Shown here one piece after another: positions 6,024-15,804 of a stretch of 25,999 nucleotides of DNA. Numbering within the stretch: position 1 is the first letter of the stretch; each line of letters opens with the position of its first letter. Position numbers and translations under genes: made by a program. The notes below the pieces were generated by a model, which saw only the letters and a program-made list of their open reading frames with translations, was not told the DNA's origin and searched no databases. The stretch comes from a virus: IMG/VR virus record IMGVR_UViG_3300042296_000166, positions 1 to 25,999 of that record. The stretch is one strand, 5' to 3'.

Positions 6024-6551
6024 ATGAGAACTAACAGGTGTAAGAGAAAGGACAAATACAAAATAAGTATAAAGTCCCGTCCGTTCCAAAAACATATCAC
6101 AAGAAACTACCCAGACCATAACTACATGAAGTACTGGAGGGTGATAAGGTACTGGGCATGTCGATACTACGACGTCACCATGATAGAGCTAGAGATACTG
6201 TTCTTCCTGCATGACGAGATGCTGTTCAACAAGACAACGTTCGATTCATACGACAACATATTCAGGTGGGATACAAAGAGGATGGCTAACCTAAAAAGAA
6301 AGGGGCTCATCAGAACATTCCGTGAGCCCACTAATAGCCAAGCTAGATTGTACGAGCTAAGCTTCAAAGCAAAGAAGATGATTAACTCAATCTATAAAAA
6401 GCTAAACGGCGAAGAACCCATACCTACTACACCTAGTAGAAACCCTATGTTTAAGAAGAAAGCAGGCTTCACAGATAAGGTCTTCGCCATCGCAATTAGA
6501 AACTTTAACAAAGAGTTTAAAGAATCAAAGCAACATCTCGATACTGAATAA
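6024..6551 (+). CDS. Probable winged-helix DNA-binding regulator
   Basis: The 175-residue product is basic. Its middle (about residues 51-125) reads as a winged helix: a helix starting VTMIELEILFFLHDE, a recognition-type helix TKRMANLKRKGLI, a wing-like FREPTNSQARLYELS and a closing helix FKAKKMINSIYKKL, a MarR-like order. It is the only plus-strand gene inside the leftward late block, with its own promoter at 5985-6016. Its 3' end overlaps groES by 35 bases on the opposite strand, so transcripts of the two would be complementary. A late-gene or chaperonin regulator is plausible; the target is unknown. Confidence 0.75.
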   Translation: MRTNRCKRKDKYKISIKSRPFQKHITRNYPDHNYMKYWRVIRYWACRYYDVTMIELEILFFLHDEMLFNKTTFDSYDNIFRWDTKRMANLKRKGLIRTFREPTNSQARLYELSFKAKKMINSIYKKLNGEEPIPTTPSRNPMFKKKAGFTDKVFAIAIRNFNKEFKESKQHLDTE

Positions 6552-6780
6552 TCCTGTACGACTCTTCACCATTTCGGTAGTCGTGCCCTTGGACAGCATC
6601 GTAGGCAACAACGTCACCCTTATGTATATGCTCAGCAACTAAATCGCTGACCTCTATAACCTCTGCCTCCTGGTAACGCTGCTTTACAATCTCAGCTCCA
6701 GTGAGTAACAACCCACTCGCGCTCTTTTGCTGCTCTACAACTAGAGGCTTAACTACAATAAAACTATTTAACGCTTTCAT
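6517..6780 (-). CDS. groES: Phage co-chaperonin GroES
   Basis: The 87-residue product shows the GroES frame: MKALNSFIVVKPL at the start, SASGLLLTG (mobile-loop region, about 21-29), EAEVIEVSD, then KGDVVAYD (54-61) and the closing YRIIQYRDVALIL. Typical GroES has about 95 residues, so this is slightly short. It would cap the GroEL ring during folding of client proteins in the cytoplasm. It follows groEL with a 17-base overlap, the reverse of the bacterial groES-groEL order. The mobile loop differs from the host type, which fits a dedicated phage pair. Confidence 0.9.
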   Translation of the reverse strand: MKALNSFIVVKPLVVEQQKSASGLLLTGAEIVKQRYQEAEVIEVSDLVAEHIHKGDVVAYDAVQGHDYRNGEESYRIIQYRDVALIL

Positions 6781-8362
6781 TCTCTCTTACATTTGTGATT
6801 ATCGCATTCGTACTAAGGATCGTAGTGGCCACAGATACAGCATTCTTAAGCGCGTTCTTAGTTACCTTCGCTGGATCAATAATACCCATCTTCACCATGT
6901 CACCTGTCTTCTTATCCTTCACGTTGTAACCCCTGCCTACACTACCATCGTCAAAGAACTTCTCGTAGTCCAACACCTCGTTGCCATCAACGCCAGCGTT
7001 CTCACAGATCTTATGGAATGGAGCCTCGCACGCCTGAGACATAATGTCCAACGCAACTGATGGGTTACCGTTAACCATAGCTTTAGACGCTGTAAACGCC
7101 ATCGCGTTCACAAGTCCTACACCACCACCAGGAAGCACACCATCCTCAATCGCAGCCTTAACAGCCAGCACCGCATCGTCAACACGATCCCTCAACTCCT
7201 TCTGCTCGATGTCTGAACTAGCACCAACGTAGATCATACCTACACCTCCTGAGATAGAGGCAATTCGTTCGTCCATGAACTTAAGGTTCTCCTCCAACGT
7301 CTCCTCCCACTTGCTCATCTTAAGCTCCTTAACGTATGCATCAAGGTCCTCATCAGTGCCCTCGTGACGCACAATGATCGTACTGTCCTGACTAACGATG
7401 ATCTTCTTCGCCCTGCCAAGTCCTGACACCGTACACAACGCTAGGTTGTCACCAGTAGACTCTGAGTAGTAGTGAGCACCCAATGCCTTGGATATATCTG
7501 TCATCATCTCGTCCTTACGGTAACCGAAATTAGGTGGGATAATGTTACATACCTTGATCTTGCCCTGCACAACGTTCATGTTAAGTGTAGCTGATACCTG
7601 TGGTGACAGCTGACCTACAATAAGCAATGGCTTACCTTCCTTCAACACATGAGCCAGTACGTTCTCTATGTTAGATAGATTATTAATCTCATGATCCGTA
7701 AGTAACACATACGCATCCTCCATCACGCACTCCATCTTCTTGTGATCCGTAACGTAGTACTTAGATGTCCACCCCCTGGCAACACGGATACCCTTAATAA
7801 CCTCAGAGTATGTCTTCGTGGTCTTAGAGTTCTCTACAATAACATGGCTAACCTGTGAGTACACATCAGCGATCAACTTACCTACAACTGGATCATTGTT
7901 CGCAGAGATCGTCGCTACATCAAGCAGCCTCTTACCACTGACCTTCTTAGACATACGTCCAAGCTCCTTCACTACATCGTCTGCAATTGATTGGATCTGT
8001 CTTAGTACCTCAGTCTTGCTGTGCTTGTCTACATCAAAGTAGTCCTCGAACGCATCGATAATAGCCTTGGTAAGCACAATACTAGTCGTAGTGCCATCAC
8101 CTGCCGACGAAGCCGTCTTAGATGCTGCCTCCCGTACTAACTGTACCGCTAAGTTCTCTACTGGATCGTACAAGTTGATTGATCGTGCGACAGTCACACC
8201 ATCCTTTGTAACAGTCACACCTCCTATGTGGTGTTCTGACTCTATTAATACCGTCTGACCTGATGGCCCTAACGTAGATGAAACTGCTGCTGATATCTTG
8301 TCGATGCCATTTTTCAGTTTCTTACGTCCACTTTCATCTAAAAATATCTGTTTTACTACCAT
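6764..8362 (-). CDS. groEL: Phage chaperonin GroEL
   Basis: The 532-residue product is a full-length group I chaperonin. Visible landmarks are LGPSG (31-35), TKDGV (52-56), the nucleotide-binding GDGTTT (88-93), and RVDDAVLAVKAAIEDGVLPG followed by GGVGLVNA, which contains the aspartate equivalent to the catalytic D398 of E. coli. The C-terminus ends TNVRENESVK and lacks the Gly-Gly-Met tail of bacterial GroEL. It probably folds phage proteins, perhaps the capsid or tail proteins encoded nearby. It is the first gene of a two-gene operon under a consensus promoter at 8382-8412. Confidence 0.95.
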   Translation of the reverse strand: MVVKQIFLDESGRKKLKNGIDKISAAVSSTLGPSGQTVLIESEHHIGGVTVTKDGVTVARSINLYDPVENLAVQLVREAASKTASSAGDGTTTSIVLTKAIIDAFEDYFDVDKHSKTEVLRQIQSIADDVVKELGRMSKKVSGKRLLDVATISANNDPVVGKLIADVYSQVSHVIVENSKTTKTYSEVIKGIRVARGWTSKYYVTDHKKMECVMEDAYVLLTDHEINNLSNIENVLAHVLKEGKPLLIVGQLSPQVSATLNMNVVQGKIKVCNIIPPNFGYRKDEMMTDISKALGAHYYSESTGDNLALCTVSGLGRAKKIIVSQDSTIIVRHEGTDEDLDAYVKELKMSKWEETLEENLKFMDERIASISGGVGMIYVGASSDIEQKELRDRVDDAVLAVKAAIEDGVLPGGGVGLVNAMAFTASKAMVNGNPSVALDIMSQACEAPFHKICENAGVDGNEVLDYEKFFDDGSVGRGYNVKDKKTGDMVKMGIIDPAKVTKNALKNAVSVATTILSTNAIITNVRENESVK

Positions 8363-10839: not shown

Positions 10840-11600
10840 CTGCAAAAAAAAATATTTTTTTTATTTTTTCCTACTACTACTACTATATATATACTAATTT
10901 TTTTTTTATTTATAATTGGTAAAAAAGTCAACATCTTAACACTAAAAACACTAAAACCTTTACTACGACTGGGCTGTAGGAGTTTTGCATGTAACATCAA
11001 CTCAGCACAAACCGACACTAAATCGGGCTTTTCAACAAATTCTAACATCTTTTTTCGGGGGTCGCATATTCGGGGGTAGTGGGTAATATACCCATTTGAC
11101 GTAAGCACCCATCAAACGAAAACCGATCAAAATCCAGGTGGGGGGTATCGATTTTGGATAAATGCATGGAAGTTTTTAGCTTTTTGTTGAGGGGGCGCAT
11201 AGGTAGGTAGGTAGCACTCTACGCGCGCGCGCACATGTGTATGTATATAGATGGGTACAGCTGTAGGTATATAGATAGACCTACCGACGTACATACGTAT
11301 GTATGTGCCGACGATCATTCGATCAACCATTCTATTTAACATAATGTAAATTATAGGACAAGAAGATCAAACACCAGGCAACACGATCAATCGTTCAACC
11401 AATCGGCATGCCGTTCGTTCGTTCGGTGATCATAGGCGCACATCCTTAGATGTTGAATAACCCCATCAACCCCCCAAACCACGAAAAATCTAGCAAAATC
11501 CGACGTAATATCCGCATAACTATCTGAGGATCAGTAGATAGATATGTATAAAAGCAAATTGTAACATGTATTTTTATTTAGAATGAGTATAAATAAGCTA
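10840..11600. other. Non-coding control region with AT-rich tract and simple repeats
   Basis: No convincing gene is present. The region holds A/T runs (10842-10870 and 10897-10912), a CTA microsatellite running into TATA (10871-10894), GTAGGTAGGTAG (about 11201-11213), a CGCGCGCG run (about 11222-11231), a TACATACGTATGTATGT dyad (about 11291-11307) and GTTCGTTCGTTCGG (about 11413-11426). Imperfect repeats CGATCATTCGATCAACCATT and CGATCAATCGTTCAACCAAT lie near 11311 and 11383. Open frames here are low-complexity. It may contain an origin, recombination or termination sequences, but nothing specific is recognised. Confidence 0.6.
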
Positions 11601-14748: not shown

Positions 14749-14946
14749 ATGTGGCAAGCAGTCGTCAGACCTGTTGGCATTCCAGAGGAATGGGTGATAG
14801 GTGTGCTGTATGGAGAGAGTCATGTGGAGAGGTACAGCGAGATCGTATCGTATATGTTAGACATGGGTATCCAAGAATTCGAGGTGATGCACTATGCACC
14901 ACTTAGGTGCACAGCTGTAGCGATTGAGGATATATTTTTAAATTAA
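14749..14946 (+). CDS. Small hypothetical protein
   Basis: From the ATG at 14749 the product has 65 residues (MWQAVVRPVGIPEEWVIGVL). The frame is open seven codons further, but that would overlap the preceding gene and 14749 follows its stop by one base. It appears to be a small alpha/beta protein with no recognisable motif. Confidence 0.6.
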   Translation: MWQAVVRPVGIPEEWVIGVLYGESHVERYSEIVSYMLDMGIQEFEVMHYAPLRCTAVAIEDIFLN

Positions 14947-14958
14947 ATCTATTAAGTT

Positions 14959-15123
14959 ATGAGTAGTAAACCTGATTTCAGAGTCAAGTTATTTGGCGAC
15001 GATGTGACTAAGCAGATCCTTGCCGCATCGATTATCAATATGTATAAGGATGAGTACGGTGATAACAATATCCATGCATGGATATCTAACGGTTATGTAA
15101 ATATCAGTGTCAAGAATTGTTAA
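14959..15123 (+). CDS. Small hypothetical protein (54 aa)
   Basis: The product begins MSSKPDFRVKLFGDDVTKQI and ends WISNGYVNISVKNC, probably a strand-helix-strand fold. It is the last gene before a 500-base gene-free stretch, so it closes the first early cluster. It has no recognised family. Confidence 0.6.
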   Translation: MSSKPDFRVKLFGDDVTKQILAASIINMYKDEYGDNNIHAWISNGYVNISVKNC

Positions 15124-15426
15124 AATCTGTTAAATCGTGCTGACAAATGTTGTGTTGATGTTGCCCGCAAAACTATGTCTAGCCCTTTGCCAGTCTAGCT
15201 TTCAGCTTTCTTAGTGTTAAGATGTTACTCTTTACTCTAATTAATTAGAAAAAAAAATAATAGAGTATATATAAAGAGAGATGGGGCGTGGAGATAAAAA
15301 AAATAAAAAAAATCAGCGTCATGTCAGCACATCAGCACTAAAATAGGTTAGTCTATTGATAGTCAGGCAGTTACACATTTTTGTGTCAGCACTGAGTCAA
15401 CATTTTGCAACATTTGTTGACAGAGA
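15124..15426. other. Gene-free control stretch with GTCAGCAC repeats
   Basis: No gene is seen. GTCAGCAC occurs at 15323-15330 and 15385-15392, TCAGCAC at 15332-15338, and the inverse GTGCTGAC at 15137-15144. A dyad GTCAACA/TGTTGAC (15396-15402 with 15415-15421) lies directly before a consensus promoter. TACTCTA/TAGAGTA with CTCTTT/AAAGAG forms an imperfect hairpin around 15226-15288, inside an A-rich tract. The sequence GTCAACATTTT (15396-15406) also occurs, inverted, in the repeat cluster at 10721-10731. Repressor, activator or replication-initiator binding is likely. Confidence 0.55.
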
Positions 15427-15458
15427 TTTGCAAAGTTTATAATAATTGCATAGATTTG
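15427..15458 (+). promoter_or_regulatory. Promoter TTTG-N20-TAGATTTG
   Basis: TTTG (15427-15430) and TAGATTTG (15451-15458) have exactly 20 bases between them, the same spacing as the early promoter at 11627. Transcription would start near 15464, at the edge of the tRNA-like element. The dyad GTCAACA/TGTTGAC just upstream may regulate it. Confidence 0.75.
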
Positions 15459-15463
15459 CATTT

Positions 15464-15624
15464 ATTAGTGATTAGGTCGGGTAGTAAGGTAGCTTACAAA
15501 CTTATAGCGTTGAATTCCTTTAAGTCCCTGTAGATGGTTCGAGTCCATCGCCTGAACAAAACATGTTCATGGTAGACATGTTTTATTTGGTTTCATAGGA
15601 GGGGGTGGTTCCCCTCCTTTGTTT
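15464..15624 (+). ncRNA. Candidate small RNA with tRNA-like fold
   Basis: A cloverleaf-like pattern starts about 10 bases after the promoter. GGTCGGG (15475-15481) pairs 6 of 7 with CCTGAAC (15551-15557). TA follows at positions 8-9. A D-like arm GTAAG/CTTAC (15484-15497) and an anticodon-like stem ACTTA/TAAGT (15500-15504 with 15521-15525) come next. The T arm GATGG-TTCGAGT-CCATC (15533-15549) is canonical. Departures from a true tRNA are a 16-base anticodon loop, one extra G before the acceptor strand, a mismatch and no CCA. A 9-bp hairpin AAAACATGT/ACATGTTTT (15558-15584) and a terminator follow. It could be a degenerate tRNA, a tRNA mimic or an attachment-site remnant. Confidence 0.5.
15597..15624 (+). 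terminator. Strong rho-independent terminator
   Basis: AGGAGGGG (15597-15604) pairs perfectly with CCCCTCCT (15611-15618) around a six-base loop, followed by TTGTTT. It closes the small-RNA unit before the membrane-protein gene at 15649, which therefore needs readthrough, antitermination or its own promoter. Confidence 0.8.
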
Positions 15625-15648
15625 AACTTAATTTAAATTCAATTAACT

Positions 15649-15804
15649 ATGTGGTACTGTCCTTTATTTTTAATCTTTTGTTTTTACGCTGTGATCTTCT
15701 CAGCGTTACACAATCCCTGGCATAGATACACCGTATGGGTGTTATTCATGTGCATATTTATTAATCTAATCGGAACGTTATGGTTTATCATCGAAATAAT
15801 TTGA
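15649..15804 (+). CDS. Small membrane protein with two helices (51 aa)
   Basis: The product (MWYCPLFLIFCFYAVIFSAL ... VWVLFMCIFINLIGTLWFII) has two hydrophobic helices joined by a short loop HNPWHRYT. It overlaps the start of the glucosaminidase gene by 25 bases, which suggests coupling. A small two-helix membrane protein directly ahead of a cell-wall hydrolase could be a holin for that enzyme; this is inferred from layout only. Confidence 0.6.
   Translation: MWYCPLFLIFCFYAVIFSALHNPWHRYTVWVLFMCIFINLIGTLWFIIEII

Follow-up and report, generated by a model that had tools for sequence, protein, structure and literature searches.

Between a small gene that ends at position 14946 and the endolysin gene that starts at 15780, the genome of a podovirus-like phage carries a segment that looks in part like a tRNA gene, raising the question of whether it is a working tRNA, the remains of one, or an RNA of another kind. 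We analyzed this locus within the window, that is, the whole 25,999-base virus record, whose gene content includes GroEL, a BT4734-like primase, a single-strand binding protein, an exonuclease, and a glucosaminidase-type endolysin. The nearest named relative, judged by the primase (48% identical), is MW202828.1, and a primase search gave 80 IMG/VR relatives (54 to 100% identical). A preliminary description had proposed a separate small-RNA gene with a tRNA-like fold and no reading frame. Indeed, the ORF list holds no frame of 60 or more amino acids between the two flanking genes, and the T arm, the minimum-energy fold, and the comparison of the slot in relatives supported the proposal. The assignment of 15417-15618 as a small RNA gene composed of a promoter-like site, a tRNA-like fold, a 9-bp hairpin, and a terminator thus largely holds, and the element is very probably a tRNA-like RNA gene, neither a canonical tRNA nor debris. 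Elsewhere in the window, the phage GroEL gene (6517-8362) has a GroES-like frame alongside, a pair also present in MW202828.

In the unconstrained minimum-energy fold of 15476-15557, the tRNA-like part spans 15477-15557 (Table 1). Its acceptor consists of 6 contiguous pairs, the next position being G-A, and so falls short of the 7 bp of a canonical tRNA. With this 6-bp acceptor, in which T15482 pairs with G15550, the extra base previously placed before the acceptor strand disappears. Counted from the 6-bp end, a G-U forms the third pair and an A follows the last one, an arrangement that resembles the known AlaRS signal, a lead only. The T arm, in contrast to the acceptor, is canonical as described (TTCRANN loop on a 5-bp stem): one strict T arm is present in the window, compared to 0.15 per dinucleotide shuffle, and the motif GGTTCGANTCC occurs 0.017 times per shuffle. 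The same T arm was found in the second element of MW202828 (L009 near 673). The middle hairpin, separated from the T arm by a 7-nt spacer in the minimum-energy fold, does not form a canonical 5-bp/7-nt anticodon arm, its stem being irregular, with a mismatch and a bulge. The 16-base anticodon loop of the preliminary description is one possible reading, obtained if just the outer 5 bp form, while the minimum-energy fold closes further and leaves 7 nt; the absence of an anticodon arm is therefore less clean here than in the 57-nt element L052 or in the long elements described below. Since the fold energy of the tRNA-like part was ordinary (z of -0.38, no better than shuffles), it is the T arm and the comparisons that carry the case. 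With the hairpin and terminator included (15467-15640), z was -3.07.

Table 1. Features of the small RNA gene in the window
Feature	Positions	Strand	Basis or remark
Promoter-like site TTGACA-18-AATAAT, 11/12	15417-15446	+	Promoter scan
Exchangeable cassette	15462-15556	+	In L005 an unrelated, longer tRNA-like element; homology back at discriminator base
5' acceptor strand TCGGGT	15477-15482	+	Fold; pairs with 15550-15555
D-like hairpin GTAAG-GTAG-CTTAC	15484-15497	+	Fold; 4-nt D loop
Middle hairpin ACTTA...TAAGT, where the anticodon arm would be	15500-15525	+	Fold
7-nt loop TTGAATT, left by irregular extension of the middle hairpin	15510-15516	+	Minimum-energy fold
T arm GATGG-TTCGAGT-CCATC	15533-15549	+	Sequence, fold, shuffle comparison
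3' acceptor strand GCCTGA	15550-15555	+	Fold
Discriminator A and first C of the CCA end; full CCA not encoded	15556-15557	+	Sequence; as in nearby phage tRNAs
9-bp hairpin AAAACATGT-TCATGGTAG-ACATGTTTT	15558-15584	+	Sequence; kept in L005, altered form in L020
Intrinsic-terminator-like stem, then TTGTTT	15597-15618	+	Terminator scan; equivalent stem in L020

Standard tools did not recognize the element. ARAGORN called no tRNA or tmRNA gene in the window, and Rfam gave nothing at the gathering threshold and no tRNA match even at an E value of ≤10, the matches obtained at that level being at chance level. The lack of a fully encoded CCA, listed earlier as a departure from tRNA, is real but is no departure, because true phage tRNAs nearby mostly lack it too; for true tRNAs encoded close to the long elements and on their strand, the three-base context at the 3' end mostly reads CAA, CTA, or CAT. 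We also searched the 23-nt 3' part, allowing up to 2 mismatches, for a long match to a host tRNA and found it in none of 395 genomes from the phylum of the Riemerella genome, a set in which tRNAs were detectable by a tRNA search and outside which the phage's host may lie.

The signals around the fold were of unequal strength. The promoter had been called full consensus, whereas the site matches at 11 of 12 positions, and the number of promoter-like sites (3, versus 2.6 expected) was about that of chance. The segment 15417-15461 has 1 change in 45 nt compared to L006, a relative from another metagenome, and likewise compared to L005. A Bacteroidota-type motif, TTTG-N20-TAGATTTG, also fits, overlapping the promoter-like site and ending near 15459. 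The 9-bp hairpin and the terminator were confirmed: the terminator scan of 15100-15800 gave six sites, five of them overlapping at 15597-15618, compared to 0.4 per shuffle. Upstream of the promoter, the leader region at 15148-15276 is about 72% identical over 130 nt to an opposite-strand noncoding copy at 10883-11007, an inverted repeat also present in L005.

Comparison with relatives revealed that the tRNA-like part behaves as a cassette. In the closely related L005 (endolysin, 98%), homology to the window runs as far as 15461 and is regained at the discriminator base; the insert between these points is unrelated and has a Leu-type tRNA-like element (acceptor GGAGCAG/CTGCTCC) at its end. In this insert, an open frame (L005 6480-6660) runs at its 3' end into the tRNA-like element, with its stop inside the element. 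L020 (primase, 75%) carries a third element (acceptor AGTCGGG/CCCGACT) followed by a related hairpin and terminator, with homology seen downstream only. Judged from these sequences, the slot of the window element is occupied by different tRNA-like RNAs in close relatives. The window element itself occurs in two slightly different copies, one in the window and L001, the other in L002 and L006, and a wider search by promoter and by hairpin returned the same three records and nothing more. Record G001 (primase, 99%) was left out of the slot comparison, its sequence not covering the slot.

Several relatives have a second slot close upstream of the primase gene, marked by the shared downstream sequence CAGTTAGGGTTCTGNGGTTANCC, which all of its occupants precede. 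These occupants include true tRNAs called by ARAGORN, namely, tRNA-Lys (L055, L060, and L062) and tRNA-Arg (L056, L057, and L072); a 57-nt mini-tRNA made of an acceptor, one hairpin, and a T arm, with no anticodon arm (L052 and L054); and a Leu-type element (L284; acceptor AGTCAGG/CCTGACA). The last belongs to a record, G045, whose primase is 54% identical to that of the window, and its cassette is about 94% identical over 114 nt to the one found in the first slot of L005, although the two acceptors differ on both strands.

We then considered the class to which the L005 element belongs. Two pattern scans of viral contigs, each with at least 120 matching stretches, together with the loci from relatives, gave at least 235 distinct long elements among the matches listed, which are not an unbiased sample. 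They are defined by a D arm TGGCGGAA..GGTANACG and a T arm CAGG..CCTG with a long interior between; the shell, that is, acceptor, D arm, and T arm, is Leu-like, and 46 to 107 mostly unrelated nucleotides stand at the position of the anticodon arm. The D arm and inner T stem are prescribed by the scan pattern, so independent evidence comes only from the acceptor, from bases 48 and 73, and from the interior. Among the 234 listed elements analyzed for pairing (one of the 235 lay too near a contig end), the acceptor formed 7/7 pairs in 211 and read AGTCAGG in 137, while A73 was found in 192 and T48 in 224. Where the acceptor was other than AGTCAGG, 90 of 97 among the matches listed were fully paired, compared to a mean of 1.8 with shuffled partners. 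Such covariation points to RNA pairing at work, since nothing else requires these partners. In L255 and L278, near-identical interiors stand on differing, fully paired acceptors (ACCAAAG/CTTTGGT and AGTCAGG/CCTGACT, respectively); by sequence comparison, the acceptor appears exchanged and the interior kept.

The anticodon stem of these elements was at shuffle level. At the canonical place, 19, 77, 94, 38, and 6 of the 234 listed elements formed 1, 2, 3, 4, and 5 pairs, compared to 18.6, 76.3, 95.4, 38.5, and 4.7 in shuffles; the positive control for this comparison was small and imperfect, five of nine canonical-length Leu shells scoring 5/5 and four scoring 1 to 3. A hidden 5-bp/7-nt hairpin with T33 occurred in 28 of the 225 distinct interiors listed versus 21.4 in shuffles, inside the shuffle range of up to 32. 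The interiors were mostly unrelated to one another, 158 of the 234 listed having no partner. After removal of near duplicates, 70 of 199 listed interiors had a helix abutting base 48, compared to 12.4 in shuffles that keep base composition only, and its 5' strand lay most often 5 to 30 nt after the D arm. Folding of seven clusters revealed between 0 and 7 two-sided changes per cluster, several of which fall in the acceptor, and support for a specific interior fold is therefore modest.

Two simple accounts of the interior were rejected. If an intron interrupted the anticodon loop, the sequence that follows the D arm should pair downstream; it did so in 28 of 199 cases versus 11.5 in shuffles. 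This excess of about 2-fold is much smaller than a conserved anticodon stem would produce, and the strong signal lies instead in the helix before base 48. An antisense guide was not supported either, since the longest antisense match between an interior and its own locus did not exceed in length those to the loci of other phages (215 of the 234 listed elements had enough flank). A BLAST search with one long element against named phages returned part-matches only, mostly to tRNA genes. In the interiors of L190, L219, and L245, we observed a second-T-arm lookalike, accompanied in L219 by a tRNA-like anticodon hairpin, as if these were nested tRNAs.

Short forms also exist. A dedicated scan gave 49 stretches representing 31 distinct sequences of 54 to 69 nt, L052 and L054 among them, and the outer three T-stem pairs, which lie outside the search pattern, were formed in all 31. 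Further short elements are L009b (68 nt) and L079 (45 nt). Elements of 45 to 69 nt can accommodate little or no payload, and their existence indicates that the shell itself is the common functional part. The L009 locus of MW202828.1 (523-697) holds two unannotated tandem tRNA-like elements; both exceed the Rfam tRNA gathering score, although a normal anticodon arm is missing from the fold of each. A related long pattern, searched in 84,980 bacterial and archaeal genomes, was found in 31 stretches, giving 29 analyzed elements. Phage-like neighbors were present in several of 12 examined by eye, with a terminase-like gene near L366 and L386 and a Mu-like transposase beside L361. L369, L373, and L387 were judged to be nested tRNAs, and L377, which has a run of N, is an artifact.

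How does the window element relate to these classes? On sequence grounds, and with its transcription predicted, it fits a broad class of stand-alone RNA genes with an acceptor and a T arm and no canonical anticodon arm. It lies outside the long Leu-shell class, from which it differs in D arm, T arm, and length; it shares with the long element of L005 only the slot and the signals, and its link to the Leu-type class is one of slot and plan, not of sequence. The window element can thus be regarded as a real, conserved, stand-alone phage tRNA-like RNA gene, one occupant of an exchangeable slot, for which a function may be suggested.

Phages are known to supply tRNAs of their own, and it is increasingly recognized that bacteria counter phages through attacks on tRNA. 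The acceptor/T half is common to the window element and to the short and long forms, whereas the decoding half is absent or variable, and for this reason we prefer a mimic or decoy. The transcript would be matured as a tRNA, its 5' end by RNase P and its 3' end, including CCA, by host enzymes. Normal decoding would not be possible, and the RNA would act through its acceptor stem and T/D elbow, tying up a host protein that holds this half, most likely a tRNA-attacking defense or toxin enzyme or else a tRNA-processing or charging enzyme. Rapid exchange of cassettes would fit an arms race. The mimic reading of the preliminary description, with tRNA enzymes or host defenses as the target, is thereby retained as a suggestion. 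As a whole, an exchangeable tRNA-like RNA acting via its acceptor/elbow half as a mimic or decoy is our best explanation, one that we would put a little short of an even chance; the decoy or mimic mechanism, taken by itself for the window element, is somewhat more tentative. LeuRS is not known to need the anticodon, which could explain a Leu-type shell, although the window element is not of Leu type. A precedent for the acceptor/T half alone as a target is Cas12a3, a defense nuclease reported to engage the tRNA tail, acceptor, and T arm (PMC12851939); no link between it and these phages was seen.

The alternative that survives best, although it is unlikely, is that the tRNA-like fold serves as a processing handle or scaffold: RNase P and a 3'-end nuclease would excise it, and the useful product would be the interior payload or the constant 3' hairpin with its loop TCATGGTAG. 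Consistent with this, the hairpin and terminator stay in place while the tRNA-like part is exchanged, and many members combine an interior of 46 to 107 nt with the helix beside base 48. A payload, however, is missing from the members of 45 to 69 nt, antisense matches between the interiors and their own phage are not in excess, and the hairpin motif follows a T arm at only 3 of 27 distinct places.

It is still less probable that the element is an aberrant but working tRNA, for instance, a tRNA-Phe(GAA) on an overlong anticodon stem, in a slot devoted to tRNA supply. The 7-nt loop of the minimum-energy fold would permit such a reading, and the true tRNA-Lys and tRNA-Arg genes found in the second slot of relatives would also be compatible with simple tRNA supply; in addition, an ARAGORN tRNA is located no more than 2 kb from 87 of the 234 listed long elements, and all 304 such tRNAs are on the same strand. 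Against it stand the 6-bp acceptor, the 4-nt D loop, and the failure of ARAGORN and Rfam to recognize the element, as well as the other occupants of such slots, namely, L052 and L054, which lack any anticodon arm, and L005, L020, and L284, long elements of the Leu type, in which the canonical anticodon stem pairs no better than in shuffles.

The preliminary description had also considered a decayed tRNA. A nonstandard acceptor and D arm and the lack of recognition by ARAGORN and Rfam would suit a decayed gene or neutral relic, but conservation makes this very improbable. Compared to L006, the tRNA-like part has 0 changes in 83 nt and the hairpin and terminator (15557-15624) 0 in 68, the latter also compared to L005, while 26 of 155 positions differ just downstream (15625-15779), 11 of 324 upstream, and 6 of 402 in the endolysin gene. 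About 2 changes would be expected in these 151 nt at the endolysin rate and about a dozen at the combined rate of both flanks. An unchanged element between changed flanks is unlike a relic; moreover, the flanking signals are conserved, and the replacements found in the slot are other, well-formed tRNA-like elements. The least probable reading is that the tRNA-like sequence acts as DNA, either as an integrase target (the earlier suggestion of the tRNA half of an attachment site) or as a seam for cassette exchange: tRNA 3' ends are common phage integration sites and homology between the flanks of the cassettes resumes exactly at the discriminator base, but the 3' part is absent from all 395 genomes, both acceptor strands and the D hairpin are present, acceptor partners covary as RNA pairing alone requires, and the gene has its own signals.

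Some known RNAs resemble these elements in plan. T4 species 1 RNA (rnaC, NC_000866) is annotated as a small stable RNA and adjoins tRNA genes, and its 3' 94 nt fold with a 7-bp acceptor (CGGAACG/CGTTTCG), a canonical T arm, and a long hairpin but no canonical anticodon arm. T4 is an unrelated phage, and its RNA has no sequence relation to the window element beyond the T-loop pattern. Nothing was found on it in the literature searched. The long elements resemble tRNA-Leu, a class II bacterial tRNA, in their D arm (TGGCGGAA(T)TGGTAGACGC), T48, A73, 7-bp acceptor, and an arm abutting base 48, but have no anticodon stem at the canonical place and carry an interior of 46 to 107 nt. tmRNA, like the window element, has an acceptor and a T arm and no anticodon arm; the tRNA-like part of about 80 nt, however, leaves no room for a tag frame and pseudoknots, and neither ARAGORN nor Rfam called a tmRNA gene with a tag peptide. 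Plant RNA viruses likewise imitate part of a tRNA, with tRNA-like structures at their genomic 3' ends that are mentioned in PMC9693318. Those structures are parts of RNA genomes, whereas the window element stands as a small gene by itself in a DNA phage, equipped with a promoter-like site and a terminator.

Neither Rfam nor the literature searched yielded a description of phage RNAs of this kind. RNA genes that keep the acceptor and elbow, give up normal decoding, and are exchanged as cassettes suggest nontranslational tRNA mimicry by DNA phages. Tentatively, and about as firmly as the decoy mechanism itself, we propose a large and as yet unnamed guild of phage RNAs that consist of tRNA bodies that have lost the anticodon arm or carry a fast-evolving domain in its place, that occupy tRNA slots of phages (many of them phages of Bacteroidota) as exchangeable cassettes, and that act as decoys or mimics against host enzymes seizing the acceptor/elbow; T4 species 1 RNA would count among its classical members. 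Nearly all of these elements escape standard annotation, ARAGORN naming 9 tRNAs among the 235 long elements listed and none among the 31 short forms. With related elements in prophage-like regions of cultured strains, such as Sphingobacterium paludis CGMCC 1.12801 and Epilithonimonas mollis DSM 18016, and a T4 look-alike, the question is directly testable.

Two further sequence patterns were noted near elements of other relatives. A recurrent TTGACAGCT(C)GGAAAGAC(G)AGC-like sequence lies directly 5' of tRNA-like elements in L028, L074, L053, and L065, the L028 copy being a variant; with a -35-like hexamer followed by a small palindrome, it is seemingly a shared promoter or operator. In L041 (near 1482) and L060 (near 920), T-arm-like hairpins that lack a convincing acceptor partner are followed by TATATAAG..GTG.TGCAAGT; they are possibly another type of RNA.
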